In this document: positions 7,056-50,500 of the stretch, piece by piece
How positions within the stretch are numbered: position 1 is the first letter of the stretch
Layout of the letters: every line of letters begins with the position of its first letter
Assembly (NCBI RefSeq): GCF_900109785.1
Contig: NZ_FOBH01000002.1
Span: forward strand, 1-64,000
DNA from: Nitrosovibrio tenuis
Lineage (GTDB): Bacteria; Pseudomonadota; Gammaproteobacteria; Burkholderiales; Nitrosomonadaceae
Reading direction: 5' to 3'
Length of the DNA stretch: 64,000 bases
Notes under the pieces: model-generated
What the model saw: only the letters and a program-made list of their open reading frames with translations
Databases searched by the model: none
What the model was told of the DNA's origin: nothing
Made by a program: the position numbers and the translations under genes

Positions 7056-7157
7056 GATTAAAATAGTGTGAAATGACCGCCAGTTCGAGCCTGCTATAAG
7101 GCTCCCTCGAACTGAACATGGTCTGGTGAGCGATTGAAGGGCATAGGAGATACCAGC

Positions 7158-7511
7158 ATGAGTGACAGGATCACCATTTACCAGAAACCCACTTGCAGTA
7201 AATGCAGGGCAACGCTCACTCTGCTCAAGGAGAGCGGGGAAGAGTTCGATGCCGTCAATTATTATGAAACGCCCCTGAATGCCGGACAACTACGTGAACT
7301 GATCGACAAGCTTGGGATCCCCGCACGGGCCATATTGCGGAGCGATGAACCCCTGTTCCGCAGCCTCAAGCTCGCCGAGCGGCAGCTTTCGGATGATGAA
7401 TTGATCAGGATCATGGTGGAAAATCCGGACCTGATTCAACGTCCAATTGTCGTGCGCGGTGAACAGGCTGTATTATGCCGTCCTCCGGAGAATGTCACGA
7501 AATTGTTGTAA
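7158..7511 (+). CDS. ArsC/Spx-family thioredoxin-fold reductase
   Basis: A 117-residue protein of the glutaredoxin-linked arsenate reductase family. The nucleophile loop is YQKPTCSKCRATL, with a CxxC in place of the simple Cys-X-X-S/R loop of E. coli ArsC. The family's second site, QRPIVVRGEQAVLCRPPE, contains the conserved RPIV segment. The ATG at 7158 is preceded by AGGAGA at good spacing; a longer reading from 7134 lacks such a site. No arsR, arsB or acr3 gene is nearby, so arsenate may not be the real substrate. A general thiol-reductase role is equally possible. Confidence 0.85.
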   Translation: MSDRITIYQKPTCSKCRATLTLLKESGEEFDAVNYYETPLNAGQLRELIDKLGIPARAILRSDEPLFRSLKLAERQLSDDELIRIMVENPDLIQRPIVVRGEQAVLCRPPENVTKLL

Positions 7512-7647
7512 AGGGCAATGATGAGATAGTGGTATAAAGCAGATTTGCACAGTTCAGTTTTTCGCAAGTTATATGCGGTCGATGGTAGTTGCGCCTGGAA
7601 ATGCATGGTCGGGCGTACAGACCTGTCCAGATCTTCCAAGAGACGAG

Positions 7648-8106
7648 ATGATAATGAATAGCAGATCAATCGGTATAACCAGTATAGCCGGCTTCACGGG
7701 AGCCGTGGAACTGTTTGCCTCGCTTGTTCTAGCGGTTCTCCTGGGATTACCAGCCAGCGCAGCGCAAGCCGAATGCGCTGGATGTCTGTGTCCGGGCAAC
7801 CCGTGTAACTTATGTCCTTTACCGCCGGTAAAAAACAATACCCCGGTTTCGGGCGAATCAGACACATGCCTAAAAATTCGGGAAAAAGTGGCCCCGGTTT
7901 CAAAAAATACCGAGCCGAATGAGCATTATGCAAGCCTGCACAATTCGATCAGGGAGTGCGTCAGAAACGGTGGCGATGTCCTTATGAATTCGCGCCGGAG
8001 CCAGGAATTTCCCTCCAAGCATTATTGCAAGCCCTACGTTTCGTCCGCCAAGACAAATCCAAAACAAGCTACTGACCCGTCAGGACAAAATCAGGAAAGA
8101 AAATGA
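7648..8106 (+). CDS. Cysteine-rich secreted protein leading the glrK operon
   Basis: A 152-residue protein I do not recognise. It has an N-terminal signal sequence or anchor (LFASLVLAVLLGLPASAAQA). A dense Cys cluster follows at once (ECAGCLCPGNPCNLCPLPP), with five Cys in about 16 residues, and three more Cys lie further on. The C-terminal end is polar and rich in Lys, Gln and Asn. Its stop overlaps the start of the histidine kinase gene (ATGA), so the two are translationally coupled. It could be a periplasmic accessory to the sensor, for example a metal- or redox-responsive partner; this is inference from position only. An ATG two codons downstream (7654) is an alternative start. Confidence 0.7.
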   Translation: MIMNSRSIGITSIAGFTGAVELFASLVLAVLLGLPASAAQAECAGCLCPGNPCNLCPLPPVKNNTPVSGESDTCLKIREKVAPVSKNTEPNEHYASLHNSIRECVRNGGDVLMNSRRSQEFPSKHYCKPYVSSAKTNPKQATDPSGQNQERK

Positions 8107-9605
8107 TTGTTCGCGCGGAGGCAAGGCACGAGAGTGGGGGGGATGCCACCTCTTCGTCATGGCTGCGGCGCAATCCCAGCTCATTCCTGAAATTGATTCT
8201 GCTCGGTTTCGCTTTGGTCGGCTTGCCTCTCATCATCGCGCTCATCAACAGCGCTTTATCGATAGATCGCCTGGCGGACCATAGTCGTAAGGCCGTGTAT
8301 CAGGCAGCTCAAATTGCGCATAGCAGCCGCGCCCTGGCTGATGAAATTGCCGCCATGGAGCGTGCCATACGGCAAACACATATTCTGGGCGACACCTCTC
8401 TACTCGAGGGTTATTTTAGGGCGCACCATAAATTCGAGACCACTGCAGCGGCCCTTTTTGAACTTTCACTTCATGCGGAACAGAAAGAGCTGTTGACCCA
8501 ACTTCAAGCCCTGGAAGCTTCCATTTTCCAAAAATTATCCATCATAAAGCAATCTCCTGAAGCATTGCGCGATCTGATCGGCAACTTTGCAACACTGCGG
8601 GATTCAGCACGGACCTTTTCTTCGCTCGGTTATACATTGATAGAGCGTGAGGTCGGTGAATTGCAGGATATGGCGGGCTATGCCCGTTTTACCGTCGGCT
8701 GGCAGCTTCTCGCCCTGATCCCGTTTGCCATCCTGTTGGCATTCATGTTCTCCCTGCGTATTGCGCGCCCCATAAAACAAATTGATGAGGCTATTCGCAA
8801 CATGGGGCAGGGTAAACTGTCCAAATCCATACGCGTGGATGGGCCTCAGGATTTGGTATATTTCGGTGAACGCCTCGATTGGATGCGCCGGCGCCTGCTG
8901 AAACTTGAAGAGCAGAAAACGCGGTTCTTACAGCATGTTTCTCATGAGCTCAAGACGCCGCTCACCGCAATGCGTGAGGGTGCGGATTTGCTTGCGGAGG
9001 GAGTGACAGGTGAATTAAACGAAGGACAACAGCGGATCGCAAGCATCCTCCATAGTAACAGTGTGCAACTGCAGAGGCGTATCGAAGATTTGCTGAGCTA
9101 TAGCGCGCTTCAGACTGAGAAAGCCGCACTGGTAAAACATAAGGCAAATGTGAGAACCATAGTGGAGGCCGTGTTACAAGATCAGAACCTGATCATCATG
9201 AGCAAAAGTTTGCAAATCGAGCTATCCTGCCCGGAACTGATGATTGATTGCGATGAACAAAAAATAAAAACTATTGTGGATAATCTGTTATCGAACGCTG
9301 TGAAATTTTCTCCGCCGCGCGGCTGCATCAGCATGTGGGCGAAGAGGGTAGAGGAAATGATTGAACTACATGTTGTGGATACCGGGGCGGGTATTGATGA
9401 GGGAGACCGTGAGAAAGTGTTCGAGCCTTTTTACCAGGGCCGGCGGATGCTCGACAGCCCGATCCGCGGAACGGGCTTGGGCCTGTCCATTGCACGCGAG
9501 TACGCCTTGGCGCATGGCGGCAATATCGAGCTGGTGCCGCAGGTTGGCAGCGGGGCTCATTTCCGCCTCGTCCTGCCGATTCACGACCCGGAAGGATCAT
9601 TATGA
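8103..9605 (+). CDS. glrK: Sensor histidine kinase, GlrK (QseE) type
   Basis: A 500-residue inner-membrane sensor kinase. The first membrane helix is at about 28-52 and the second at about 198-220, enclosing a helical periplasmic sensor of some 145 residues. A HAMP linker follows (about 220-270), then the dimerisation domain with the phospho-acceptor His281 (HVSHELKTPLTAM) and the ATPase domain with N (DNLLSNAVKFS), G1 (DTGAGI) and G2 (GTGLGLSIA) boxes. Gene order kinase-lipoprotein-sigma54 activator matches GlrK-QseG-GlrR of enterobacteria. It overlaps both neighbours by four bases, so the operon is tightly coupled. The signal sensed cannot be read from sequence. Confidence 0.9.
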   Translation: MIVRAEARHESGGDATSSSWLRRNPSSFLKLILLGFALVGLPLIIALINSALSIDRLADHSRKAVYQAAQIAHSSRALADEIAAMERAIRQTHILGDTSLLEGYFRAHHKFETTAAALFELSLHAEQKELLTQLQALEASIFQKLSIIKQSPEALRDLIGNFATLRDSARTFSSLGYTLIEREVGELQDMAGYARFTVGWQLLALIPFAILLAFMFSLRIARPIKQIDEAIRNMGQGKLSKSIRVDGPQDLVYFGERLDWMRRRLLKLEEQKTRFLQHVSHELKTPLTAMREGADLLAEGVTGELNEGQQRIASILHSNSVQLQRRIEDLLSYSALQTEKAALVKHKANVRTIVEAVLQDQNLIIMSKSLQIELSCPELMIDCDEQKIKTIVDNLLSNAVKFSPPRGCISMWAKRVEEMIELHVVDTGAGIDEGDREKVFEPFYQGRRMLDSPIRGTGLGLSIAREYALAHGGNIELVPQVGSGAHFRLVLPIHDPEGSL

Positions 9606-35580: not shown

Positions 35581-36041
35581 TGAAATTTATCCTTTCAGCA
35601 AGCAATTGAATTACCGCATTGCGCACATCCACATATACGGATTGTGGATATAGGTTGGGGCATCATTTCAATCTTTTGTTGAGTGTTTGACTGAGCTGAT
35701 GGCTGTAAAACGAATTCATTATAGTATGGTATAAAGTAGTTAACGTTACAGCCTTCTTTGCAACAGAGTCGCCCACACCTAACGTGGCGACCAGAGCCCC
35801 GACCTGGCTCCCTTATGGGTTCCCTCACCCAGTTTCTCTCACCCGCGCTCTTCCGTTATTTTTCTAACCTGTGAATTCTGCCAGCTCAGCTTGTTGAGTT
35901 CTGTGTGCAATCGTACATACATGGAAGGTAACGTGAGGAATAATCTCCGGAGCTTGCTGCGCCTTCGGGTTCCAGGCTTCCCGTGACAGTCTGCCTATGA
36001 CAGTTTGCAAGCAATTATTCCGTTTGTATTAGAGGATGATC
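35581..36041. other. Intergenic stretch before ku
   Basis: About 460 bases between divergent genes. An open frame on the minus strand (35595-35828) has Cys-rich, low-complexity sequence and no ribosome site, and I do not accept it. The region should hold the promoters of the methyltransferase and of ku-ligD. Confidence 0.4.
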
Positions 36042-36932
36042 ATGGCTACGTCTGCCAGCCGGTCTTTATGGAAGGGCGCTATCAGCTTCGGTTTAGTCCA
36101 TATACCTGTAGCGCTTCATTCAGCCACTTCGGAACAGGGGATTAATTTCGAGTGGCTCGATAAACGTACGATGGATCCGGTCGGTTATAAGCGGATCAAT
36201 AAAAAATCCGGAAAAGAAGTGGATAAGGAAAATATCGTCAAAGGTGTCGAGTACGAGGATGGCCAGTATGTGGTTCTAAGCCAGGAGGAAATCTCTGCCG
36301 CTTATCCGAAAACCACGCAAACCATCGGAATTGAAATGTTTGTACCGGCTAACGATATTCCGATTATTTATTTCGAACGTCCCTATTACGTCGTACCGAT
36401 CAATAAAGGCGAGAAGGTCTATGCGCTGCTGCGCGAGGCTCTTGTCAAGACACAACGCGTGGGTGTCGCCAGGGTAGTCATTCAGACCAAGCAGCACCTC
36501 GCCGCACTTGTGCCCTGGGGTCCTGCGCTTATACTGAATTTGTTGCGCTGGAGTGATGAAATTCGTAGCTGGAAAAATTTAAACTTTCCGGCTGAAGGAA
36601 CCGAGGCCCTGGGTATTACCGAGAAAGAGCTAAAAATGGCTGAGCAGCTGATTATGGAGATGAGTTCAAAATGGGATCCTGAAGAATTTCGTGATTCATT
36701 CAGGGATGAGATCATGAGACTCGTGGAACAAAAAGCAGAAAAGGGCGAAATACAAGCTGTGGCCCAGCCGGAGGAAGCCGAATCAGTGCGTTCGGGCGCG
36801 CAAATTCTTGATCTCACGGAGTTGCTTCAGCGCAGCCTGAAGAGTGGCCACAAGAAAGATGGCGAAAAGACGGCCGGTCCACATACCGCGAAGGCACCTG
36901 CAAGGGGAACGCATAAGCGCCGGGCGGGGTAA
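36042..36932 (+). CDS. ku: DNA end-binding protein Ku
   Basis: A 296-residue bacterial Ku that binds double-strand DNA ends as a ring-shaped homodimer and recruits LigD. The N-terminus SRSLWKGAISFGLVHIPVAL is a strong family signature, and the core contains YFERPYYVVPINKGEKVYALL and ELKMAEQLI. The C-terminal about 50 residues are basic (HKKDGEK...THKRRAG), as in Ku proteins that contact DNA and LigD. I chose the ATG at 36042 with AGAGG six bases upstream; an ATG two codons earlier is possible. ligD follows 11 bases on. Confidence 0.95.
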   Translation: MATSASRSLWKGAISFGLVHIPVALHSATSEQGINFEWLDKRTMDPVGYKRINKKSGKEVDKENIVKGVEYEDGQYVVLSQEEISAAYPKTTQTIGIEMFVPANDIPIIYFERPYYVVPINKGEKVYALLREALVKTQRVGVARVVIQTKQHLAALVPWGPALILNLLRWSDEIRSWKNLNFPAEGTEALGITEKELKMAEQLIMEMSSKWDPEEFRDSFRDEIMRLVEQKAEKGEIQAVAQPEEAESVRSGAQILDLTELLQRSLKSGHKKDGEKTAGPHTAKAPARGTHKRRAG

Positions 36933-36943
36933 CATAAACAAAC

Positions 36944-39502
36944 ATGCCAAAATTGGACTCGCTTAAAACTTACCGCGAAAAGCGCGATTTTTCCATAACG
37001 TCAGAACCTGCTGGGCTGGAAAAAAAAGCCGGCGCAAAGAAAACAGCCCTGTCATTCGTCGTCCAGAAACACTGGGCGACCCGTTTACATTATGACCTCA
37101 GGCTGGAGCTTGAGGGCACAATGAAAAGTTGGGCTGTTCCCAAGGGGCCGAGTTTCGATCCCAATGACAAACGCATGGCGGTCCACGTCGAAGACCATCC
37201 CATATCCTACAATACTTTTGAAGGTGAAATTCCGCACGGACAGTATGGTGCGGGCAAAGTCATTGTCTGGGACAAGGGAATCTGGATCCCTCTTGAGGAT
37301 CCGCACAAGGGTTATCGCGACGGCAAACTGAAATTCGAACTGCATGGCCATAAGCTAAAAGGCCACTGGACGTTGGTGCGCATGAAAAATACACAAGGGC
37401 AGAAGCAGGAGGCCTGGCTGCTTATCAAAGAAAAGGACGGGTATGCTCGTCCGGCAAGTGAGTACAGCGTGGTGGATGAAATGCCTGATAGCGTTTCACA
37501 TCTTAACATACCGCAAATCCTGGCATCCGCTGAGTCGCCAACCTTCTCGGCAAGCCGCAAGGCATCGGGAACGGGAAAAAATATGGTTTTGCCCGTGAGC
37601 GCGGTTAAGGCCGATCCTCCGCGTATGCTTGAGCCTCAGCTCGCCACACTGGTGGATGGGCCGCCGGCCGATCCTGCGGAATGGATTTATGAGATCAAGC
37701 TCGATGGTTATAGGTTGTTGACCAGAATAGATGGCAAGGAGATTCGGCTTTTTACGCGAAACGGTAACGACTGGTCCCATAAATTGCCCGATCTGCTCAA
37801 GGCGATAAGCAAAATGAGGTTGAAACCGGGATGGCTGGATGGTGAAATCGTGGTGCTGAACGAGAAAGGCATACCGGATTTTCAAGCTTTACAGAATGCA
37901 TTCGATACCGAGCGGACCCAAAGCATCTCCTACTTTCTTTTTGATCTCCCTTTTTATGATGGATATGACTTGAGACCTTGTTCAGTGATTGAACGCAGAG
38001 AACTGCTGAAAACCTTATTTGAAAAACCCGCACCGGAACAAATACGCTTCAGCGAAGTTTTTGACGCGCCGCCCGACGCCGTGCTCGGTTCGGCGTGCCG
38101 GCTGGGACTGGAAGGTATTATAGGTAAACGCAAGACCTCGACTTATGTTTCACGCCGCTCTCCCGATTGGATAAAGCTGAAGTGCGCCCGCCGCCAGGAA
38201 TTCGTCATTGGTGGCTATACTGATCCCAAGGGGTCCCGCGAAGGAATAGGTTCGTTGCTGCTTGGTTATTACGATGAAGATCACCAGCTCCAATACGCCG
38301 GTAACGTGGGGACGGGCTTTAATGATAAAGCGCTTCGCGATCTGAAAGCGAAGTTGGAGAGAATTTCTTCCGAGAGCAGCCCCTTCGTCAGAGGGAGCGC
38401 AATTGATAAAAAAGCCCATTGGGTAAAACCGGTGCTCGTGGCTGAGGTTTCCTTCGGTGAATGGACCCGGGGCGGCCATATTCGGCATGCTGTGTTTCGC
38501 GGTTTGAGAACGGACAAGAAAGCGGAAGCCATTGTTCGCGAAAAACCGGTGCACGCCGACTCTGCAAGGGCTGACAGCTCAGCTTCGATTCCGCCATCAT
38601 TGAGGATAACGAATCCTGACCGGGTGATTGACCCATCCAGCGGGTTCAAGAAGATCGACCTCATTCGCTACTATGCCCTGGTTGCCCCTTTGATGATGGA
38701 ACATCTCAAAGGAAGACCCGTTTCCCTGGTACGCGCACCCGACGGGATATCGGGCCAGTTGTTTTTTCAAAAGCACTGGGACAAGGAAAACATGCGGGGT
38801 GTCAGCCAGCTTGATCCCGATCTCGATCCGGAGCATGAGCCCTTGCTTGAAGTTTCAACCGCTGAAGGTCTCCTGTCCGCCGTGCAGATGAATGTGATCG
38901 AGTTTCACACCTGGAACGCTACGAAAGACAAAATCGATAAACCGGACAGAATGGTATTTGATCTGGATCCCGGTGAAGGGGTGCAATGGCCGCACATTCG
39001 GGAATCGGCACAGCTTGTTTTCATATTCCTGAAGGAATTGGGATTGAAGTCTTTTCTGAAAACGAGTGGGGGCAAGGGGTTACACGTTATCGTGCCCATT
39101 AAAAGGTTCTACAATTGGGATACGGTAAAAGAATTCTCTCAAGCCATTGTTCAACATCTGGCGGCCACGATCCCCCGGCGTTTCGTCGCGAAAAGCGGGC
39201 CGCGAAACCGTGTTGGGAAGATTTTCATTGATTACCTTCGAAATGGCTTTGGGGCAACGACTGTGTCCGCCTGGTCAGTGCGGGCTCAGCCGGGCCTGAG
39301 CGTGTCCGTACCGTTGGCATGGGAAGAACTGGAATCACTTACAAGCGGTATGCGCTGGTCCGCCTCGAATATTCATGAACGCCTCGATAGAGGCAATGAG
39401 CCTTGGGCGGATTACCAAACTGTAAAGCAATCCATCACACCGGCCATGAAAAGGTTGGGATTCAAACCCAACCGAGAGAATACCAAGCAAAAAACCGCTT
39501 AA
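36944..39502 (+). CDS. ligD: Multifunctional DNA ligase D
   Basis: An 852-residue NHEJ enzyme with all three domains in the order phosphoesterase, ligase, polymerase. The phosphoesterase (about 30-185) has QKHWATRLHYDLRLEL and IPHGQYGAG. The ATP-dependent ligase starts near 228, with the nucleotidyl-lysine Lys252 in YEIKLDGYR. The primase-like polymerase (about 555-840) includes MVFDLDPGEGVQW, with the metal-binding Asp residues, and LKTSGGKGLHV. With Ku it forms a complete minimal repair system for double-strand breaks. It lies 11 bases after ku, so the two are an operon. Confidence 0.96.
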   Translation: MPKLDSLKTYREKRDFSITSEPAGLEKKAGAKKTALSFVVQKHWATRLHYDLRLELEGTMKSWAVPKGPSFDPNDKRMAVHVEDHPISYNTFEGEIPHGQYGAGKVIVWDKGIWIPLEDPHKGYRDGKLKFELHGHKLKGHWTLVRMKNTQGQKQEAWLLIKEKDGYARPASEYSVVDEMPDSVSHLNIPQILASAESPTFSASRKASGTGKNMVLPVSAVKADPPRMLEPQLATLVDGPPADPAEWIYEIKLDGYRLLTRIDGKEIRLFTRNGNDWSHKLPDLLKAISKMRLKPGWLDGEIVVLNEKGIPDFQALQNAFDTERTQSISYFLFDLPFYDGYDLRPCSVIERRELLKTLFEKPAPEQIRFSEVFDAPPDAVLGSACRLGLEGIIGKRKTSTYVSRRSPDWIKLKCARRQEFVIGGYTDPKGSREGIGSLLLGYYDEDHQLQYAGNVGTGFNDKALRDLKAKLERISSESSPFVRGSAIDKKAHWVKPVLVAEVSFGEWTRGGHIRHAVFRGLRTDKKAEAIVREKPVHADSARADSSASIPPSLRITNPDRVIDPSSGFKKIDLIRYYALVAPLMMEHLKGRPVSLVRAPDGISGQLFFQKHWDKENMRGVSQLDPDLDPEHEPLLEVSTAEGLLSAVQMNVIEFHTWNATKDKIDKPDRMVFDLDPGEGVQWPHIRESAQLVFIFLKELGLKSFLKTSGGKGLHVIVPIKRFYNWDTVKEFSQAIVQHLAATIPRRFVAKSGPRNRVGKIFIDYLRNGFGATTVSAWSVRAQPGLSVSVPLAWEELESLTSGMRWSASNIHERLDRGNEPWADYQTVKQSITPAMKRLGFKPNRENTKQKTA

Positions 39503-39698
39503 TGACTCGTCCACCCGGGGGAGTGGCCGGCAAGACAACAGCATACGAACAGTCCGGATGGGCATGATATTTCATTTGTTCACTCCACCAGGCGGACTGA
39601 ATAACGAGCATTCCCATCTTGGGGACTATGTCAGCTCACGTTGATGCTGGCGTAGAGGCAATGTCAATGCAAATGTCATGTCAGCGTGGAGCCCGGTG

Positions 39699-40733
39699 TC
39701 AGGGTTTGAGGGCGGTAACGATACTGTAGTATCCAAAAGTAGGATGCACTTCAATGTCATGAAATCCCGCTCCCTTCAGCATGCCTGATAACTCAAGTCC
39801 GGAGTACGATTTACCCTCCGTCCACCCCATCATGAGCATGCTATATGCTGCAGGGGCAAAAGGCCCGGTTTTGTCATCGTTATAGAGCACGTCATGGATA
39901 ATGATGCGTCCGCCCGGCTCAAGGCACCTGAAACTCTTCTCAGTCAAAAAATGGCACTTTTCAGGCGGCCAATCATGGTATATGTTGGAATAAAAATGTA
40001 GATCAGCTTCGGGAAACGGATCGTTCCACATGTCCGCCACCTGCGTTCCAATACGGTCCTGCAAGCCGTAGCGGATAACGAACTCTTGAGCCACTTCGCA
40101 TATGGGCTCCAAATCCAGAATTAATGCTTTTAAATCGTTCCATCTCAACGCAGCCCCGATTGAGTGGGCTCCCGAGCCCCCGCCGATGTCGAGCATCAGC
40201 TTGATCCCGCTTAAATCGACGGCGTTCGGCCATGCTGTGGCCAACGTCATGCTGATGCTGTGCATTCCGCGCGTGAACCGGCGTGCCAGCTCCGCTTGCT
40301 CTTCATGAGATTTATAGATATCGCCGCCCCCATAAGCCTGGGGGCAGTCGGTAAGCACTGCCTTTTCGAGGCTCGCATAGGAAAAAACCTCGGAATTATC
40401 AATCATCATATCCCAGAAGAAACCAAAGTAGCTGGGGCTTTTTTCGAGGAGATAATCTTCAGAAAGCGGGGTGAGAGCATAATGCCCATCATGCAGTGAC
40501 AGAAAACCCAAAGCCGTGGCGGTCGTCAACATCGCTTCGGCTGGTCTTGTTTTGATATTAAGGGTATTGCATATGTCGGGCAGTGTACGTGCTCCTTGTC
40601 CCAGCAGCGTAAAAACCTTGAGGCGATGGGCTATAAGCAGCGCAGGATTCCCGAAAACTCCAAACATGACATCCCATAAGGGACGGTCGTCTATACGGGG
40701 CCGGGGTATATCTACAAACTTTTCCTGGTCCAT
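39699..40733 (-). CDS. CrtF/acetylserotonin-type O-methyltransferase
   Basis: A 344-residue SAM-dependent O-methyltransferase. The N-terminal dimerisation helices contain a winged-helix fold (LPDICNTLNIKTRPAEAMLTT style). The catalytic domain has LMLDIGGGSGAHSIGAAL (SAM motif I), LDLEPICEVA and FYSNIYHDWPPEKCHFL, and RCLEPGGRIIIHDVLYNDD. The family includes bacterial CrtF (hydroxyneurosporene methylation), but no carotenoid genes are near. It lies last in a minus-strand trio after a LOV protein and an SRPBCC protein. Confidence 0.88.
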   Translation of the reverse strand: MDQEKFVDIPRPRIDDRPLWDVMFGVFGNPALLIAHRLKVFTLLGQGARTLPDICNTLNIKTRPAEAMLTTATALGFLSLHDGHYALTPLSEDYLLEKSPSYFGFFWDMMIDNSEVFSYASLEKAVLTDCPQAYGGGDIYKSHEEQAELARRFTRGMHSISMTLATAWPNAVDLSGIKLMLDIGGGSGAHSIGAALRWNDLKALILDLEPICEVAQEFVIRYGLQDRIGTQVADMWNDPFPEADLHFYSNIYHDWPPEKCHFLTEKSFRCLEPGGRIIIHDVLYNDDKTGPFAPAAYSMLMMGWTEGKSYSGLELSGMLKGAGFHDIEVHPTFGYYSIVTALKP

Positions 40734-40842
40734 GAAAACCTCTTCCTAGTATGTAAAGAATTCGATACGGCCTAATCGTCATTCCACGGCCTGTATATAT
40801 GTATACGTATCTGACAACAACATATGTCCACCTGAACTTATA

Positions 40843-41316
40843 TCATGGTCGTGGCAATAACGAAGACAGTAATCGCCGGGTATCCGCCTCCTGCTGCAGG
40901 CTGAACTTTGAGATCATCTCGCGGTTACGGTTTATATCGTATTGAATACCGAGATAGTAGATGAGTTTTCCCGCACCATTGAAAAGCGGGGTGAGCGTCA
41001 AATGGTTGAAGAAGAGTTCGCCATCCTTACGATAGTTGCGAATAGTGACTTCGATGGGTTGCTGGCTTTGGATGGCCCGCTTCATCGCGAAACGTGCATC
41101 CTGTTCCCGATCGCTCCCTTGCAAAAACCGGCAGTTGCGCCCCAGGATCTCCTGCTGGGAATATCCAGTCATCGCCTCGAATTGCATATTGGCGTAGACG
41201 ATGGGCATATCTTCCAGATCCGGATCCACCAATACGATGCCATTAATAGAGCTGTCCAAAATTTGGGACAAGATATTCGGGATCAATCCGGGGTCTTTTT
41301 CAACTACAAAAGTCAT
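40843..41316 (-). CDS. Short LOV (blue-light photoreceptor-like) protein
   Basis: A 157-residue protein that is nearly all one LOV-type PAS domain. The flavin-adduct motif GRNCRFLQG is exact, with the photoactive Cys62. The flavin-binding segment NYRKDGELFFNHLTLTP and the end YYLGIQYDI are also canonical. A helical tail of about 30 residues follows (SKFSLQQEADTRRLLSSLL), a likely J-alpha-like dimerisation helix. There is no kinase, HTH or GGDEF output domain, so it must signal by contact with a partner, perhaps the adjacent SRPBCC or methyltransferase proteins. It starts 34 bases after the SRPBCC gene. Confidence 0.92.
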   Translation of the reverse strand: MTFVVEKDPGLIPNILSQILDSSINGIVLVDPDLEDMPIVYANMQFEAMTGYSQQEILGRNCRFLQGSDREQDARFAMKRAIQSQQPIEVTIRNYRKDGELFFNHLTLTPLFNGAGKLIYYLGIQYDINRNREMISKFSLQQEADTRRLLSSLLPRP

Positions 41317-41350
41317 TCTTTTCTCCTGGATATTAATGAGCCATGATCGA

Positions 41351-41833
41351 TCAGCGCATCGTCTGTCTGGCAGCTTCAGTCAAACGTTTCAGATTTCTTA
41401 CCGTGCGTTCGGCACCTTCCTGGATGACCACACGAATCAATTTCTCAAAAGGACGCATCATCATCTGAATCTCGGTCAGTTCGAATGTAAAAACCAGCTC
41501 AGCCGACTTGCCTGAATTCATATCCGCCAGCTCATAAATGCATCGAAAAGGATCGGAGATCCCGGCAAACCCCAAGCGTTTGTTCGGCTCATATATATCA
41601 ATTTTAAAGCGGGTTTCCGTTTTGCGCCCTTGATCGATACGCACCTGACGGGCCATCGTCCCCAACTTAACGGGCCCATCGGTGATGCATTCAAGCTCAA
41701 CAACTTCCGGCGACCATTTAGGATAATTCTCGAAGAACCCGTCTCCCAGATATCTGAATATATCTGCGGAGGAGCGCTCGATCAGAATGCGCGCCTTGCC
41801 TGTCACAGGTTCTTTTGAGCCAAGGGTGAACAT
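41351..41833 (-). CDS. SRPBCC (START-like) family protein
   Basis: A 160-residue helix-grip protein, of the type annotated polyketide cyclase/dehydrase and lipid transport. The pattern ARILIERSSADIFRYLGD, then NYPKWSPEVVELE, and the long C-terminal helix (RPFEKLIRVVIQEGAERTVR) fit the fold, which binds hydrophobic small molecules. It heads the LOV operon: LOV and O-methyltransferase genes follow on the same strand. A role in binding the compound that the methyltransferase modifies is a reasonable inference, no more. Confidence 0.82.
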   Translation of the reverse strand: MFTLGSKEPVTGKARILIERSSADIFRYLGDGFFENYPKWSPEVVELECITDGPVKLGTMARQVRIDQGRKTETRFKIDIYEPNKRLGFAGISDPFRCIYELADMNSGKSAELVFTFELTEIQMMMRPFEKLIRVVIQEGAERTVRNLKRLTEAARQTMR

Positions 41834-42099
41834 ATTTTGCGGCGCCTCTGTTGTTCGGGCTGAAGGCTAAGGATTTACTTCGAGCTGAACAAAAGTGAAC
41901 TGCTGTCGGTTACTGGCTGATGCTGTATCGCTGGGGCCACGATACCCTGCTGGAAAAGGTAGATGCAAATAACTCCATTGCGACCAAGCTCCGGCTTATC
42001 CCCAAAGCGCAAACCCATAGCACCTCTACTTTTTGTCGTTCCCTGGCTTATGCCGGCGTACTCTTGCGGACTCCGCCCCCGAGATCCGGGAAGCTATTG

Positions 42100-42954
42100 C
42101 TAGCCGTTAACAATAGTGCCGCCATTTGGATGGAGCACCTGCCCGGCCATATATGAGCAATCCTGGGAAGCCAGAAAAACATAACAAGGGGCAACCTCAC
42201 TAGGTTGCCCGGGTCTTTTCATGGGGACATTTTGGCCAAAATCGGCGACTTTATCGGGGGGAAAAGTGGAGGGGATCAATGGCGTCCATATGGGGCCGGG
42301 CGCCACGGCATTTACATATATTTCGCGTTCGATCAGTTGTAACGATAATGATCGCGTAAATGCAACGATTGCACCCTTGGTGGCCGAGTAGTCAAGCAGA
42401 TGGGGGTTTCCCTTATATGCTGTCACCGAGGTTGTGTTAATGATGCGCGCTCCTTTTTTAAGATGCGGGAGCACGGCCTTTACCATATAAAACATGGAAA
42501 ATATGTTTGTGCGAAATGTCTTTTCGAGCTGTGCTTTATCGATATCGAGAATGCTTTCCCGAAGGTGCTGCTCCGCCGCATTATTCACCAGGATCTCGAC
42601 ATGGCCGAACCTGGAAATGGTCTGTGCCGCCACCTCGGCACAAAATGTTTCGTCGCCCACGTCGCCGTCAATTAAAACGCATGTTTTCCCGCACTGTTCG
42701 ATTTCCTTTTTTGTGTTATTTGCATCTTCATGTTCGTTGAGGTAGGTAATGACGATATCCGCTCCTTCTTTTGCAAAAGCGATCGCCACAGCGCGCCCGA
42801 TGCCGCTATCTCCACCTGTGATAATTGCAACCTTGGAATTCAGCTTGCCGCTGGCTCTGTAATTTTCAGAAGACGATTCGGGTTGCGGTTTCATTTCGGA
42901 TTGCAGCCCTGGTTGGCGGCTTTGTTGCTGCTTCGGAACTTTCCCTTCTTCCAT
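42100..42954 (-). CDS. SDR-family oxidoreductase, YghA/YhdF type
   Basis: A 284-residue short-chain dehydrogenase. The N-terminal about 40 residues are a Gln/Pro-rich extension typical of the general-stress subgroup. The cofactor motif TGGDSGIGRA, the NNAAEQ segment and the active site Ser-Tyr-Lys (NTTSVTAYKG, DYSATKGAI) are complete. The YVFLASQDCSYMAGQVLHPNGG ending is family-like. The ATG at 42954 has a GAGGGAG site; a longer frame to 43041 lacks one. Substrate unknown; related proteins reduce aldehydes. Confidence 0.9.
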   Translation of the reverse strand: MEEGKVPKQQQSRQPGLQSEMKPQPESSSENYRASGKLNSKVAIITGGDSGIGRAVAIAFAKEGADIVITYLNEHEDANNTKKEIEQCGKTCVLIDGDVGDETFCAEVAAQTISRFGHVEILVNNAAEQHLRESILDIDKAQLEKTFRTNIFSMFYMVKAVLPHLKKGARIINTTSVTAYKGNPHLLDYSATKGAIVAFTRSLSLQLIEREIYVNAVAPGPIWTPLIPSTFPPDKVADFGQNVPMKRPGQPSEVAPCYVFLASQDCSYMAGQVLHPNGGTIVNG

Positions 42955-43261
42955 AATGCTCCCTCGCTGGTTACAGTTTACGCATTGACAACCAATATCA
43001 CGGCTGCGTTGCTTATGCCAATTTGTGCCATATGGTGGCACGGTTATAGCGCTTGAAATTCGCTTTCTGCTTTTTTTTATTTTCAGGCCTCCGAAGACGC
43101 GCCGTTAGCCGTCCTAGCTTTTTACGTTTTAGGGCCACATAAACACGTCGGTGCCAACGGCGGAGTTAACGAACCTGGATCTTCGCTCCCGTTTCCAAGG
43201 CCGACGGTTGATGCAAGAGTTTTGGAAAAGAAACGGAAGAGCCAGAGCGTCAACAGAAGAG
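42955..43261. other. Intergenic stretch without a gene
   Basis: About 300 bases separating the SDR gene from the small basic protein gene. An open frame to 43041 is the rejected upstream extension of the SDR. The rest shows nothing I can assign. Confidence 0.4.
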
Positions 43262-43447
43262 TCAGGACTTTTTCGAACTTTTGCCTGAGCCTGGCTTCTT
43301 TCCTCCCCCTGATATCTTATTTTCGGTCGCCCAGGCGCGACGCTCGGCTTCTTGTTTCGAAACACCGTGTTTTTCATATCCCGCCTCGATATGATGCGCT
43401 TGTCGTTTCTGCTTGTCCGTGTATGAGGATTTGTCGCCGCGCGGCAT
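43262..43447 (-). CDS. Small basic stress-type protein
   Basis: A 61-residue, highly charged protein. It contains SSYTDKQKRQAHHIEAGYE and GVSKQEAERRAWATENKISGGG, followed by a Gly/Lys/Ser tail. This pattern is conserved in many proteobacteria and is often labelled a plasmid stabilisation protein, without clear evidence for that role. A GGAGGCA site precedes the ATG. Probably DNA- or RNA-associated by charge; function unknown. Confidence 0.78.
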   Translation of the reverse strand: MPRGDKSSYTDKQKRQAHHIEAGYEKHGVSKQEAERRAWATENKISGGGKKPGSGKSSKKS

Positions 43448-43684
43448 GATTGCCTCCTATATCAAGATTTCGCTGGTCTACGCATGACTCGCATGACTCT
43501 AGGAGCCATATAATGTCTCAAGAAGCCATATATCCAATAAAAAAGAAATTTCCCTTAGCCAGTTTCTTTGTTCCGTTCGCTGGCGCACATAGGAGAGAGT
43601 GAATATAGAGAGTGAAGGGGGGAGCAAAAAGAGGAGTAAAAAGCATGCGGAATATTGCTCACCAAGAAAATATCAGGAGAACTG

Positions 43685-45751
43685 TTAGTTATTTGATTTC
43701 TTTTTGGTTTGAGTACGTGAAGGTTGTGCTGGCTGCGGCTGCTTGACCGAGGCGATCAACGCGCGGCAATTGGCATCTTCACCGGTACCCAACTCGATCA
43801 AGGGTATCAATGCCGCAGCAGGCGTCGCGAGAACGCCCAATGCTACCGCCGCGCCAATGCGTATGGCCAGCATTTTATCTGGATAAACCGTCGGCTTCTT
43901 GAGCGTGCCGGCAATATGTACGGGCGTGCGTAGGCTCGGAAAACCCCATTCTTTAGGTTGTGGAGACAGCTTCATCTTGATTGTCTCTTCAGCGAGGTTT
44001 ATGTGTCCCTCTCCTAGAACAATTGTTTTTTCGGTATCGATAACGAACGCCTTGCTGTCCATGATGCCCTCTTTGACGTCATAATCTATGACAGCGCATC
44101 GCACCGGTACATTTTTATCTCCGGTGAACAGAAGCTTGATGAGCTTCGCGGCGTCGAGATCGAGGGCTGCCAGCAGCATCTCGCTAATTTCCCCACCCGA
44201 CATCACCAAGCCGAATTTGCCATCGGCCGAGGCCAACAGTGCGCCAACGGATTCTCCGTGCCCCTTTAAGCGGGTGCTACCGCCGATCACGCCCGCCGCA
44301 CCGTGGGTGAGTTCGACTTTCGGAAACAGTTTGGGTAACTGCAACCTTTTTACGTCAATCCTGGCTTCGGCAGCAGGGACATCCTTTCGTGCATTGATCG
44401 TCAGATTAGACACGATATTGCCTCCCGCAACCGCGAAGTTGGCGGGGTCAAGTGTCATAAGACCGTCATCGATTTTGAGATGGCTTACCAGATGCTCGAC
44501 CGGCAGATCCTTGTTACGGATCGATGCACCGGTGAATTTGACGTCTGCATCCATGGCTCGTAGCCGCTCAACGCTAAACTTCTGGTCGGGTAGCAGGCGG
44601 TCCCGTTGGGCCTCTATGGACGCTTTTTTCTCCTGTTTTTCGGCCGGAGTGTCTTGCGGTTGGGGTGCGCGGCGGGCGCCGATAAAACCTTTTAAATCGT
44701 TCAGGTCCAGGACCTTCGAAACGACGTCGCCCCGCAACATGGGACGCTTCCCGCCTGTATCGAAAAGAATGCTGCCGCCCAGATCGCTCTCTCCTACGTG
44801 CCCTGAAAATCCCTCCATGGACCATTCGGATTTTTGATGCAGAACTCTTCCGGATATTTGATAAGGCGGGGATGGAAAAATAACAATCCCCACTATCGGG
44901 TAGAGCGCGGATAAATCCTCTCCGCTCATATCCAATTGCAAGTCCATTTCCGCCAACTTGGCCAGTCCGGTAATAGTGCCGTCAAGCGCCGCGCGGGTGG
45001 TGCCGATCTCAACCTTTGCCTTGATGGGATAGGGAAGCGTTTCGTCGGTCAAGGTAAGCACACCGCCGCCCTGGCCTTGAGCCGCAAAACTTAATCCGGC
45101 ATATTTTCCTTCCGCCGATACGTTGATCGATGCCTCCCGCGCATCCGCCGCGCCATCAGTGGAAATTTTCGCTGTGATGTCAGTCTTGGTCTTCGGATCG
45201 CGAAAAAACACTATTCCCCGGTCCAGGGTGAGCTTGCCTATTTTTGGCAGCTCTGCTTCCTTTTCCTCCTTTTTAAGGTCCCAATTCCGCTTTCCATCAG
45301 CGCTTTTTTCCAGGAGGATTTTTGGCTGTGATACGGATACTTCGGGTAGAACGACATGCCCGGCAAGCAGATCCAAAAGACTGATCCGGAACTGGAGCCT
45401 GTCGACACCGAGCATTGGTTGCTGCGTGCCCCAATCAGCATTGGCGAGCGAAAGCCCTTCCGCGCTGACGAGGGGATTGAGCGATAACTTCACATCGAGG
45501 TCCCCACCGATTACGAATTCGCGGCCCGTCTTTTCGGTGACCTGCCGCTCGACATAGGGCTTTATCATATTCCAGTCAAACCAGATGGCGAATGCCACGA
45601 CAAGTATCAGCAGGACACTGAGGACCGACAATACCGCCCTGGAACGGGCTGATCTGGTTCGAAGAATTCGCAATTTTCGTGAAATGAAACGCATGAGCGT
45701 CACCCAATTCATGCGAGAGTTGTGGACGGTTCCGCTTAATCGTGAACTCAC
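43685..45751 (-). CDS. AsmA-family protein
   Basis: A 688-residue inner-membrane-anchored protein. A single N-terminal helix (AVLSVLSVLLILVVAFAIWF) leads to a long periplasmic beta-rich part with the AsmA core (GREFVIGGDLDVKLSLNPLV and VSAEGLSLANADWG). AsmA-like proteins are related to lipid-bridge proteins thought to move phospholipids between membranes. The C-terminal segment ends in a basic, Gln/Pro-rich tail. The true start may be the GTG at 45751 or ATGs at 45712 or 45694; the last two place the membrane helix closer to the N-terminus. Confidence 0.85.
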   Translation of the reverse strand: MSSRLSGTVHNSRMNWVTLMRFISRKLRILRTRSARSRAVLSVLSVLLILVVAFAIWFDWNMIKPYVERQVTEKTGREFVIGGDLDVKLSLNPLVSAEGLSLANADWGTQQPMLGVDRLQFRISLLDLLAGHVVLPEVSVSQPKILLEKSADGKRNWDLKKEEKEAELPKIGKLTLDRGIVFFRDPKTKTDITAKISTDGAADAREASINVSAEGKYAGLSFAAQGQGGGVLTLTDETLPYPIKAKVEIGTTRAALDGTITGLAKLAEMDLQLDMSGEDLSALYPIVGIVIFPSPPYQISGRVLHQKSEWSMEGFSGHVGESDLGGSILFDTGGKRPMLRGDVVSKVLDLNDLKGFIGARRAPQPQDTPAEKQEKKASIEAQRDRLLPDQKFSVERLRAMDADVKFTGASIRNKDLPVEHLVSHLKIDDGLMTLDPANFAVAGGNIVSNLTINARKDVPAAEARIDVKRLQLPKLFPKVELTHGAAGVIGGSTRLKGHGESVGALLASADGKFGLVMSGGEISEMLLAALDLDAAKLIKLLFTGDKNVPVRCAVIDYDVKEGIMDSKAFVIDTEKTIVLGEGHINLAEETIKMKLSPQPKEWGFPSLRTPVHIAGTLKKPTVYPDKMLAIRIGAAVALGVLATPAAALIPLIELGTGEDANCRALIASVKQPQPAQPSRTQTKKKSNN

Positions 45752-45940
45752 TCAGCCCTGAATCAGCCCTGAAAATCCGGTACCCGATGAGCCGGGTATA
45801 AGAAAGAAAGAGAAAGAAAGAACCGGGAGCTTAAAGCGGAAGCTTATGCAATGGTTTGATGCTACTTCTATGGAGATGAATCTTCGGTACGTCACCACAC
45901 ATTTCATTCGCGCGGGCAAATAGGCTTTTGCAACAGGTTG

Positions 45941-45984
45941 AAGGGGTTTGAAAGGTTGAAAGGGGTTGGAAAGGTTGTACAGCA
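45941..45984. repeat. Imperfect TTGAAAGG-type direct repeats
   Basis: Between the AsmA gene and the Crp/Fnr gene, four imperfect copies of a GGTTGAAAGGGG-like unit follow one another. A purine-rich AGAAAGAAAG stretch lies upstream (about 45801-45824). Confidence 0.55.
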
Positions 45985-46047
45985 GATTTCCGAGATCATG
46001 GGAGGTGTCAGGGGGTATCAGGGTTGCCCGATATTGATATTCCGCTT

Positions 46048-46773
46048 TTAATATTTCTGCACATCGCGAAAAAGACGCTCGAATTCTTTTTTGACAACGT
46101 CATAACACTCGCAAACGTGCGCTGTAAGTCCCGCGCGGTCGAGTACGGTAATGTGGCCGCGGCGGTAGCGGATGATGCCTGCTTGTTGCAGCTTGCCGGC
46201 GGCTTCGGTAATACCCTCGCGCCGAACACCGAGCATGCTGGCAATCAATTCCTGGGTCATGATCAGTTCCTCGGAATTCAACCGGTCCAGCGTTAACAGC
46301 AGCCACCGGCACAACTGCTGTTCGATGGTATGGTGCCGGTTGCATACCGCCGTTTGCGAGATCTGTGTAATCAATGCCTGGGCGTATCGCAGCAATAAGC
46401 GTTGGACCGGTCCTCCGCTGTTGAACTCCTGCATCATGATCGCGGCCTTCATCCGATAGCTGTCGCCGCCGGTTTGTACCGTGGCCCAGCTAGGGGTGGT
46501 GTCTCCCCCCATGAAAAGGGATATTCCGAGCATACCCTCATTACCGACGCCCGCAATCTCGGACGATGCGCCATTTTCAAGGATATAGTGGAGGGAAATA
46601 ATCGCCGAGGTAGGGAAATAGACATGAGAAAGACGACCCCCGGATTCACAAAGCACATCGCCGAGCGGCAAATGGACCAGTTCAAGGTGGGGTTTCAAGC
46701 GTTCGAATTCAGCCACCGGCAGAGCGGCGAGGAGGTGATTCTGATTGGGCTGATGGGAGAGGGGACTAAGCAT
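46048..46773 (-). CDS. Crp/Fnr-family transcriptional regulator
   Basis: A 241-residue regulator. The cyclic-nucleotide-binding-like domain (about 20-140) contains PLGDVLCESGGRLSHVYFPT and GVGNEGMLGISLFMGG. The C-terminal helix-turn-helix lies in LIMTQELIASMLGVRREGIT. The Cys residues needed for an Fnr-type iron-sulfur cluster are not arranged in the usual N-terminal pattern, and the Arg/Ser phosphate cassette of true cAMP binders is not obvious, so the ligand is unclear. It is transcribed away from the giant glucan synthase gene and is a paralogue of the shortened protein at 56308. Confidence 0.88.
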   Translation of the reverse strand: MLSPLSHQPNQNHLLAALPVAEFERLKPHLELVHLPLGDVLCESGGRLSHVYFPTSAIISLHYILENGASSEIAGVGNEGMLGISLFMGGDTTPSWATVQTGGDSYRMKAAIMMQEFNSGGPVQRLLLRYAQALITQISQTAVCNRHHTIEQQLCRWLLLTLDRLNSEELIMTQELIASMLGVRREGITEAAGKLQQAGIIRYRRGHITVLDRAGLTAHVCECYDVVKKEFERLFRDVQKY

Positions 46774-47545
46774 CCGCTAGCGCTGTCTTCAGAGGTCTCG
46801 ATAGAGTAAGCGCAGCCTGGAGACAATGGAAAGAACCGAAGATCGATTGAAATTCGCTGTGGAGTCCAACATCTATGGATTCCAACATCCTTCTGCCAGA
46901 CTGCTTCCCATTCACCAACTTATAATAGCATTTAACTGAAAAAGCAATCCCGTCAGTGTGGCTTTCAGAGAAGAGTATTGTTCTTCTATTGCTCATGGTG
47001 AAGTATTCCATTTTATGGCGGGTATTTTCGTGCGCTACCGTACATACTATGGATGAGTAAAATCCCTATCATAACGTCGTCGGGTCAATTAAAAAGCTCT
47101 CTTCTCTAAAAGAGCATTCGATTGTTCAAGCAGGGACGCTACATGGGTTTCATCCAGTTTACCGTAATGATCGCTTACTTGATCGCTTGCTGCGTTAAGC
47201 TCCGTGGTACATAAACCAGTATTACAAATCCTCATCTGTGGCCTCATGGCGGTCGTGGTTATTGTCAGCTCAGTTGCTAACTCGCGCGGTCGCTAGCCAG
47301 GACTGCTAGCCAGGACTGCTAGCCAGGGGTTGCTAGCTAAGGCTTGCTAACTAGGTACAGGTGTTCCCGGTAGCAACAAGCTTCATGGATGACTTGCTCA
47401 CAGTAGTCCTTAACAGCAGTTCCGGATTTTAATTCCGCATTTGAAAGAGCTGCCGCTCCGGGAAGTGTCTATTACATCAGTCTTGAATTCGGTCAGGACT
47501 TGGTGTAACCCATAATAAGCGGCCGCGACCTGGAGAATACTCGAA
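46774..47545. other. Long intergenic region before the glucan synthase gene
   Basis: About 770 bases separating the divergent Crp/Fnr and glucan-synthase genes. I accept no ORF in it. A tandem repeat lies at 47292-47343. The length suggests promoters for both directions and possibly a long leader. Confidence 0.5.
47292..47343. repeat. Tandem 13-bp repeat upstream of the glucan synthase
   Basis: Two perfect copies of GCTAGCCAGGACT (47292-47317), then a changed copy GCTAGCCAGGGGT and a further decayed copy starting TGCTAGCTAAGG. The unit contains the palindrome GCTAGC. Confidence 0.85.
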
Positions 47546-50500
47546 TTGAAAGCTATCACGGTGGTTTCCGACCTTTTCCTTGCCGTCAAAGCCCGACTGC
47601 ACGCAATCGGAAGACCACATGTCCCCATCAGTGAAGAATTGCCTCTACGTTCCGAGCTGTTCAGCGCCGATCAGATGGAGCTCTATGGGGGAATCCTTGC
47701 AGCGTCTCATGAGTTGTCATCAAGTCGGGGAACGGATCAGCTTCTCGCCCGGCTGGATGAAAATGAGCGAAAGCTTTACGACATCTGTAGCGTATTAACC
47801 GAAGCCGTTGCGGCGGATCAGTCCTTAACACCAGCCGGTGAATGGCTTTTCGACAATTTCTATTTGATCGAAGAGCAGATCCGCACGACCAGGCGCCATC
47901 TTCCCAAGAGTTATAGCCGTGAATTGCCTCTTCTTGCGCATGGACCATCGGCCGGTCTTCCGCGAGTCTATGATATCGCTCTGCAGGCGATTTCGCATGG
48001 CGATGGCAGAGTCGATACGGAAAGCCTCAGGCGCTTTGTCATGGCCTACCAGGCTGTTGTCAACCTGCAGCTCGGGGAGTTGTGGGCAATACCGATCATG
48101 CTCCGCCTGGCACTGATCGAAAATCTGCGCCGTGTCGGTGTACATGTGGCAGCTGGAAGAAAGGATCGGAACCTTGCCGATTCTTGGGCCGCCAAAATTA
48201 CCACGATTGCTCAAGAGGATCCCAAGAGCCTCGTTCTTGTCATTGCTGATATGGCGCGATCGGATCCACCCATGACCACGCCTTTCATTTCCGAATTGGC
48301 AAGGCGATTGCAGGGGCAAGGACCGACACTGGCGCTTCCGTTAACCTGGATTGAACAGCGGCTGGCCGAATCAGGCCAGACAATCGATCAAATGGTTCAA
48401 CTGGGGAATCAGCAACAGGCGGCCGACCAGGTTTCAATCTCCAATAGCATCAATAGCCTGCGCACGCTCGGCGCTATTGACTGGCGGGAATTTGTGGAAA
48501 CTACCAGTACTGTCGAGCACACATTGAGGGAAGACCCGGCAGGTATCTACACTCGGATGGATTTTGCTACCAGGGATCGCTACCGGCATGTGGTGGAGCG
48601 AGTCGCAAGGATATGCCCGATGTCGGAAGTACAGGTGGCCCGGAAGGCGCTTCAGTTGGCTGGCAATGCCGGATCAAGTGACCAGGGAAATGGCAAGATC
48701 AGGGCGCACGTGGGATTTTATCTCATCGATAAAGGACTGCCTGAACTCGAGGAAGCGGTTCAGGTCCGCTTTTCACCCGGGGAGAAAATCCGGCAAGCCG
48801 GCCGCCGGCATCCGCTTTTATTTTATGTCGGTGCGATCGCACTGATTACGCTGAGCCTGGTCAGCGGTCTCTTGGCCAACGCGTACGCTGACGGCGCGGG
48901 CGTATGGTTGCTGGCCGCAGTGGGATTGCTGTCACTCTTTGTGATGAGCCAGTTGGCTGTGGCGCTGGTAAATTGGATCGCTCTTTTTCTGGTGCCGCCT
49001 CATTCACTGCCACGTGTGGACTTCTCCAACGGAATACCACCGGCTTTTCATACACTGGTAGTGATCCCGACCATGCTGACCAATAAGGCGGAAATCATGA
49101 GCCTTGTTGAAGCGCTGGAGGTCCGGTTTCTCGCAAACCGGGACAATCATCTCGACTTCGCATTGTTAACCGATTTTCCGGATGCGAATCAGGAAACACT
49201 TCCGGAAGATGAATCCCTGCTGCAGCTTGCGCGTGCGGGAATCGAAGAGCTCAACACCAAATATGCCAATGCAGCCGGCAGCATGGTTGAAGCGGGCAAC
49301 TCGCCGTCGCCGGGCAAAGAAGGTCCTTTTTTTCTTTTCCATCGCCCGCGGCGGTGGAATCCGAATGAACGGATCTGGATGGGCTACGAGCGCAAGCGGG
49401 GAAAACTTGCGGCTCTCAATGCCCTGTTGCGCGGCGCCGGTGGTGATGCGTTCTCCTTGATTATGGGCAATACGCCTGTTCTGTCCCGAATCAAGTACGT
49501 CATCACGCTCGATACCGACACGCAATTACCACGAGATTCCGCCCATCAATTCGTTGGAACCATGGCTCATCCGTTGAATCAGCCGCGACTCTCGTCAGAG
49601 GCGGACGGTGACGGCGATATCGTGACAGAGGGATATGGAATTCTGCAACCGCGGGTCACGGTAAGCCTGTCGAGCACAAACCGGTCGGCTTATGCATGGC
49701 TTTTTGGCGGAGAGGCCGGGATCGATCCTTATACGCGAATCAGTTCCGACGTTTACCAGGATTTGTTCTATGAAGGCTCGTTCGTCGGAAAGGGTATTTA
49801 CGATGTTGATGCCTTCGAGAAGGCGCTCTGCGCCCGTTTTCCTGAAAATCGGATTTTAAGCCATGATCTGCTTGAAGGGTGCTATGCCCGAGCCGGGCTG
49901 TTAAGCGATGTGGAACTATACGAGGAATTTCCGTCGGGATATCTCGCCGACGTAAGCCGTCGCCATCGGTGGATCCGGGGAGACTGGCAGCTTGCGAGCT
50001 GGTTATTGTGGCGCGTGCCTGCTGCTGGCGCCAACTATCAGCCAAACCCGCTGTCAGCGCTTTCGAAATGGAAATTGATGGACAATCTCCGGCGCAGCCT
50101 TGTGCCGACAATGTCGACGCTGCTTTTACTGTTGGGGTGGATTGCACTGCCCGATGCGTGGTTCTGGACGATGACTGTCATCGGTATGCTTGCGATTCCT
50201 GCGGCGATACCGGTATTTTCCGATTTATTGAGGAAGCCTCCCGAGGTGGCGTGGCGGGAACAACTCATGAGTTCGGCACGCTCGGCCAAACGTCACTTCG
50301 GACAAATGCTGTTCACGTTGGCTTGTCTCCCGTATGAGTCTTACTTCAGCCTGGATGCGATCATTCGGATCCACGTGCGGCTTTTGATCACGCGCCGCAA
50401 GCTTCTGGAATGGAACCCGTCCCGCGAGGTCGAGCGTACGTCCGGTTTTGCGGATGTTAAGAAAAGCCATATCGGGGCAGTCACTTTTTTCCCGTCAATG

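Follow-up and report, generated by a model that had tools for sequence, protein, structure and literature searches.

The 64,000-nucleotide stretch of Nitrosovibrio tenuis DNA analysed here (the window; contig NZ_FOBH01000002.1 of assembly GCF_900109785.1) encodes a short LOV protein without an output domain between an SRPBCC protein and an O-methyltransferase (OMT). The original prediction described a LOV domain with the exact photoactive motif, flanked by proteins that could bind and methylate a small hydrophobic compound, and proposed a light-controlled metabolic or signalling unit not known from the literature. The observation itself is correct, as all three genes are present on the minus strand. 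The interpretation is supported only in part, because a conserved light-linked unit is supported for the SRPBCC–LOV pair, whereas the methyltransferase is not a core part of it. In searches of the open-licence literature, no paper joining LOV with SRPBCC or polyketide cyclase was found.

The SRPBCC gene (41833-41351, minus strand) encodes a 160-aa protein with a single Pfam match, Polyketide_cyc2 (PF10604, E 3.3e-10; 40.8 bits against a cut-off of 27.4). An AlphaFold2 model (pLDDT 92.1, pTM 0.85) predicts a helix-grip fold whose listed structural matches are PYL abscisic acid receptors, ARO/CYC polyketide cyclases and a few others (Z 16.1-17.7). Sequence identity to these structures is about 10%, so only the fold is shared, and the fold does not name a ligand. 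No credible solved relative was found by sequence with either the protein or its profile. The LOV gene (41316-40843, minus strand) encodes a 157-aa protein with only PAS-type Pfam matches (residues 16–131; PAS_9, E 8.3e-21) and no fused output domain. The protein contains the G-R-N-C62-R-F-L-Q motif (Cys62 codon, 41131-41133), and NCRF is present in 81 of 81 LOV rows checked, including the window. The flavin-pocket residues, two Asn and the C-terminal Gln (N94, N104 and Q125), are in place and are invariant in an alignment of 23 rows. The protein is not a YtvA family photoreceptor by the curated model NF052652, scoring 146.3 bits against a cut-off of 250 and covering positions 1–125 of the 243 in the model. 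Its best sequence matches among solved structures include short LOVs of Pseudomonas. The OMT gene (40733-39699, minus strand) encodes an ordinary 344-aa Methyltransf_2 protein (PF00891, E 2e-32, 112.7 bits) with a Dimerisation domain (PF08100, 34.3 bits). Its best solved relatives are 5i2h and MTHB/DSYB methyltransferases, and it falls well below the cut-off of the BchU-type model (TIGR02716; 74.5 bits against 276.1).

The SRPBCC and LOV genes are separated by 34 bp (41317-41350) and the LOV and OMT genes by 109 bp. The 34-bp gap contains no terminator-like site on the minus strand and is compatible with one transcript. A sigma-70 promoter scan of 39500-42300 found none, against 3.2 expected, and the upstream DNA of seven Nitrosospira loci showed no clear conserved motif beyond the start region. 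No RNA families were found in 36000-48000 and no tRNAs in the window. The genome is Nitrosospira-like. The seven closest named loci (L002-L008; L and G numbers denote loci and genomes in our collection) are all Nitrosospira with SRPBCC-LOV-OMT. Six share the whole order Crp-AsmA-SDR-SRPBCC-LOV-OMT-LigD-Ku, and the short contig L008 has Crp next to SRPBCC. Membership of the SDR gene (43041-42100) in the unit is not supported, because it stays at the locus with LOV (L002-L007) and without LOV (L134) and lies several genes away in L143.

To determine which genes form the conserved unit, the neighbourhood of this LOV type was examined in four genome sets, with genes called as longest ORFs, which are crude in GC-rich loci. 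A search of one genome for each of 84,980 species with six peptide patterns of the query, which recovers close relatives and is not a census, gave 38 loci. In 35 of them an SRPBCC homologue lies directly upstream of LOV on the same strand, and the exceptions are L030 (contig edge), L034 and L037. These loci belong to Nitrosomonadaceae, Methylococcaceae, Chromatiaceae, Ectothiorhodospiraceae, Rhodocyclaceae/Azonexaceae and Sterolibacteriaceae, and the pair occurs in nitrifying, methane-oxidising and some purple bacteria. In 369 genomes drawn from the class, the seven LOV hits above 230 bits all have SRPBCC within about 430 bp, whereas the next LOV scores 165.8 bits and its genome has no SRPBCC hit. 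Twelve SRPBCC hits were found there in nine genomes, seven of them LOV-paired. In 125 genomes of the window's family, 100 carry the LOV (106 hits at E 1e-30), and 104 of the 106 have SRPBCC within 400 bp upstream. The two exceptions are a contig edge (G434) and a divergent LOV of 129.6 bits (G377). In 398 genomes of the phylum, three have this LOV type at E 1e-50, two of them from the window's family. The third, G661, has two SRPBCC–LOV pairs, each beside a fatty-acid-hydroxylase gene on the other strand, and one DJ-1/PfpI-AraC-LOV fusion of 490 aa with no SRPBCC beside it. The linkage is far beyond chance, although three unpaired LOVs (L034, L037 and the AraC fusion) show that this LOV type exists without SRPBCC beside it, and SRPBCC exists without LOV in many genomes.

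The flanking genes differ between lineages while the pair stays. OMT was seen only in the window's family, and no homologue was seen near the pair in the loci examined outside it. An FA_hydroxylase-like gene, for which no solved relative was found, accompanies the pair in methanotrophs, G249 and G661, and a pyridine-nucleotide oxidoreductase in other genera of the window's family and in L009, L013 and L038. ABC exporter subunits or a ChaN-like protein, and a photolyase-related DPRP protein, are found in Rhodocyclaceae/Azonexaceae. An NmrA/DUF2867 protein is found in L028, with its cluster also in L029 and L032, a RatA-like second SRPBCC in L009-L013 and L038, and MsrP and/or MsrQ in several methanotrophs. 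One locus, L009, carries MerR, FA hydroxylase, oxidoreductase, SRPBCC, LOV and RatA-like genes together. Not every pair has such a gene, as none of these families was seen among the neighbours scanned near L023-L027.

The OMT is a lineage-specific third gene. In the window's family, 86 OMT hits (E 1e-60) lie in 80 genomes, and 84 of them are linked to the same SRPBCC type. In 72 the gene directly upstream is an SRPBCC without LOV, and in 12, all in the window's genus, the order is SRPBCC-LOV-OMT, including G476 with a wider gap. In the remaining two neither could be seen (G419, whose OMT match lacks its N-terminal part, and G452, at a contig edge). Four genomes have both arrangements (G461, G475, G477 and G481). 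Two genomes of the same genus, G464 and G482, have SRPBCC-OMT without LOV beside LigD, as at the window's locus, and G464 has a separate SRPBCC–LOV pair elsewhere. Ten OMT-bearing genomes have no LOV hit at E 1e-30, and two of these, G445 and G471, hold broken LOV remnants. In G471 the trio locus holds an intact SRPBCC followed by broken remnants of both LOV and OMT. The SRPBCC tree, which kept 83 of 94 rows after identical, short or stop-containing rows were left out, joins OMT-paired and trio copies with the LOV-paired copies of methanotrophs L009-L011 (100/97), and the LOV tree joins the trio LOVs with L009-L012 (100/99). The distant SRPBCC of G301 (40.6 bits) was not in the trees, and an SRPBCC of G468 with neither partner was not among the rows. 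The simplest history is that a LOV-bearing arrangement came first and LOV was then lost in the SRPBCC-OMT branch, but other orders are not excluded.

The strongest evidence for a functional pair comes from a patch of SRPBCC, R127-P-F-E-K-L-I-R134, that contains Lys131 (codon 41441-41443). Residue 131 is Lys in 75 of 75 LOV-paired rows and in 0 of 40 OMT-paired, LOV-less rows (G21, P7, A6, Q5, R1). These counts include as LOV-paired one row, L083_0, whose LOV lies about 430 bp on. Of the 11 rows left out of the SRPBCC tree, nine are LOV-paired and all have Lys, and two are OMT-paired (L130, G; L134, P). Two further OMT-paired rows left out for the same reason (L183 and L184) both have G, making 0 of 44. 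Among nine copies with neither partner, two have Lys: L169, which lies beside the broken LOV of G471, and L090, a distant homologue. The G445 copy, beside a frame-broken LOV, also has Lys. On a tree built without that column, column 131 changes 0 times over 22.8 branch units among the 75 LOV-paired rows and 10 times over 7.8 units in the LOV-less clade of 44 rows (40 OMT-paired, 4 with neither), where the averages are 13.2 and 4.9 changes per column, respectively. Of 15 columns with at most one change among LOV-paired rows, twelve stay unchanged in the LOV-less clade, and only F129, K131 and L132 vary. These three residues are close neighbours at the start of the C-terminal helix in the predicted structure. 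The 44 LOV-less rows form one clade, so the loss of K131 there is one event followed by drift, and over the whole tree Fitch parsimony counts only 4 pairing changes and 3 K131 changes. The pattern is therefore a strong hint and not statistical proof. On the LOV side, an N-cap KDxG is found in 81 of 82 paired rows, near-copies included (72 by the pattern; nine that missed it were read by eye). The SRPBCC-less LOVs L034, L037 and the AraC fusion each depart at the first or last position or both, but three cases are too few for a claim.

In the explanation that fits best, which is held with no more than even confidence, the SRPBCC protein is the effector of this LOV type and the two proteins form a blue-light switch. 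Light-driven rearrangement of the LOV dimer, perhaps at its N-cap, would be relayed to the F129-K131-L132 patch at the start of the long C-terminal helix of SRPBCC and would change how SRPBCC binds or releases a hydrophobic ligand. A lineage-specific enzyme or transporter would then use that ligand; in the window this would be the OMT, which in sister genomes goes with SRPBCC copies that have no LOV. The analysis itself establishes the gene linkage, the conserved LOV cysteine and flavin-pocket residues, the matching positions of the window clade in the two trees, the LOV-linked constraint on the patch, the joint decay of LOV and OMT in one relative and the failure to find the two published short-LOV outputs in this genome. 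Flavin binding and photochemistry of the window LOV, which rest on Methylocystis relatives, as well as physical contact, light dependence, the direction of signalling, the ligand and the substrate, are inferred. A tandem SRPBCC–LOV chain modelled by reading through the stop codons in 22 loci gave a pTM of 0.50 with low LOV confidence and showed no confident interface, and it neither supports nor excludes contact. More broadly, and somewhat more tentatively, SRPBCC-type ligand-binding proteins may be the direct effectors of a whole clade of short LOV photoreceptors. Blue light would then gate the binding or delivery of a hydrophobic small molecule, and lineages, including ammonia and methane oxidisers, would have plugged different enzymes or transporters (methyltransferase, fatty-acid-hydroxylase-like protein, pyridine-nucleotide oxidoreductase, ABC exporter) into the same light-gated carrier. 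Short LOV proteins are used as optogenetic tools, yet LitR was described in 2022 as the first protein partner identified for a bacterial one (PMC9758184). A second, structurally unrelated partner of a ligand-binding fold would show a way for light to act on metabolite binding without transcription or phosphorylation, and the K131 patch makes the idea testable with single changes. It would also give ammonia oxidisers, whose ammonia oxidation is inhibited by light (PMC9239080), a concrete blue-light receptor to test.

The alternative that survives best, although it is unlikely on present evidence, is that LOV controls transcription and that SRPBCC, OMT and the other neighbours are merely light-induced genes of one operon. 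A precedent is PmSB-LOV of Pseudomonas mendocina, a short LOV without an output domain that binds the class II LitR repressor PmlR2, a MerR-type protein encoded by a nearby gene (PMC9758184). Four methanotroph loci (L009-L012) carry a divergent MerR gene next to the FA-hydroxylase/SRPBCC/LOV operon, so LOV could act on transcription there, and the one scanned, L012, has a CarH-like N-terminus. The Methylocystis-like genome G661 fuses this LOV type to an AraC regulator. Of 24 loci with weaker LOV hits, 13 with short open frames were examined, and a MerR homologue lies nearby in 6. SRPBCC, however, lies near none of the 13, and none of those genomes has an SRPBCC hit. Five sister short LOVs placed in the tree, three of them beside MerR genes, fall in a clade separate from the LOVs studied here (100/100). 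Only 4 of the 38 loci show the MerR gene. LitR was rejected as the partner in the window genome in a search confined to MerR-type regulators, because its single MerR_1 protein lies in an open frame of 131 aa, whereas PmlR2 has 321 aa. The methanotroph MerR finds only 63 HTH residues at 17 bits at the same place. No TGTACA-N12-TGTACA site with fewer than 3 mismatches was found upstream of SRPBCC in 34 loci, and the best site in the window has 4. Transcriptional control also does not explain the LOV-linked constraint on the SRPBCC patch. Neither BLUF nor a PF00875 photolyase was found in the window genome.

A less likely alternative is that SRPBCC works mainly with the methyltransferase, as a substrate carrier or cyclase for a small aromatic or lipid product, and that LOV is a light-dependent accessory dropped in most lineages of the family. 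The 72 OMT genes directly behind a LOV-less SRPBCC, the OMT and LOV remnants lying together behind the intact SRPBCC of G471, and the predicted fold, which matches ARO/CYC cyclases as well as PYL receptors, are consistent with this view. However, no OMT lies near the pair in the loci examined outside the family, so OMT is not the general partner, and 30 of 100 LOV-bearing family genomes have no OMT hit at E 1e-60. Mere co-inheritance of SRPBCC and LOV as a convenient operon without functional contact, with which the tandem model and the absence of any measured contact are compatible, is the least likely reading, given that the pair is kept through changes of flanking genes in several families and that the patch is constrained in the LOV-paired set and loose in the LOV-less clade.

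A short LOV acting through a separately encoded partner is already known from PmSB-LOV, and the proposed partner type is what differs here. DsLOV, RsLOV, PpSB1-LOV and PpSB2-LOV share the short LOV architecture; no SRPBCC link was seen in the report on DsLOV (PMC4335406), and none is known for the others. PYLs, like the role proposed for SRPBCC, are hydrophobic-ligand receptors that signal through a separate partner protein, although neither a ligand, cyclase activity nor a phosphatase partner is shown for the SRPBCC protein. The Methylocystis short LOV proteins McLOVn and McLOVr appear to be of the same LOV type, and for them flavin binding, adduct formation in blue light and dimers were measured, with recovery in 38-180 s (PMC4416707). 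In that study, whose main text does not contain the words neighbor, operon or upstream, competition between a short LOV and the AraC-HTH-LOV factor McLOVn-TF is proposed. Such competitive dimerisation was rejected for the window genome, which has one LOV (at both E 1e-3 and E 1e-15), not fused to a regulator. G661, inferred to be Methylocystis-like, carries two SRPBCC-paired LOVs and the 490-aa AraC-HTH-LOV protein, like the published factor (337-TF = residues 337–490). By our own comparison of numbering, the N-cap landmarks Pro12, Asp20 and Thr27 of McLOVr match Pro13, Asp21 and position 28 of the window LOV. The T27I change in Methylocystis slows dark recovery about 100-fold, to 12,300 s. 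Of 81 LOV rows, 79 could be read at this position, and 78 of them have Thr or Ser. The remaining one, the window protein, has Val (Val28; codon 41233-41235, minus strand), so a slow photocycle is predicted.

The window LOV (40843-41316) contains valine at position 28, where 78 of 79 readable rows have threonine or serine, predicting slow dark recovery. A 490-residue DJ-1/PfpI–AraC HTH–LOV fusion from the same LOV type is observed at loci L147 (1492-2964) and L150 of genome G661, which contains two SRPBCC-LOV pairs, and resembles the published Methylocystis LOV-TF.

At locus L083 of genome G249 (6613-9200), two SRPBCC-LOV pairs are arranged in tandem and followed by a fatty-acid-hydroxylase gene. 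In the methanotroph loci L009-L012, a divergent MerR-type gene, with a CarH-like N-terminus in L012, is located next to the operon, and a TGTTCA-N12-TATGAA-like dyad lies between the two genes in L011 and L012; this arrangement is a possible light-regulated promoter.

The SRPBCC-LOV-OMT trio locus L191 of genome G471 (about 6013-7018) is in decay, with an intact SRPBCC followed by broken LOV and OMT remnants. The oxidoreductase-SRPBCC-LOV locus L192 of genome G445 (855-2853) contains a LOV with a broken reading frame. In loci L044-L046 (genomes G266, G155 and G362), LOV-less SRPBCC copies of the same family are found beside a gene that, by eye, reads like an HtrA/DegP protease.
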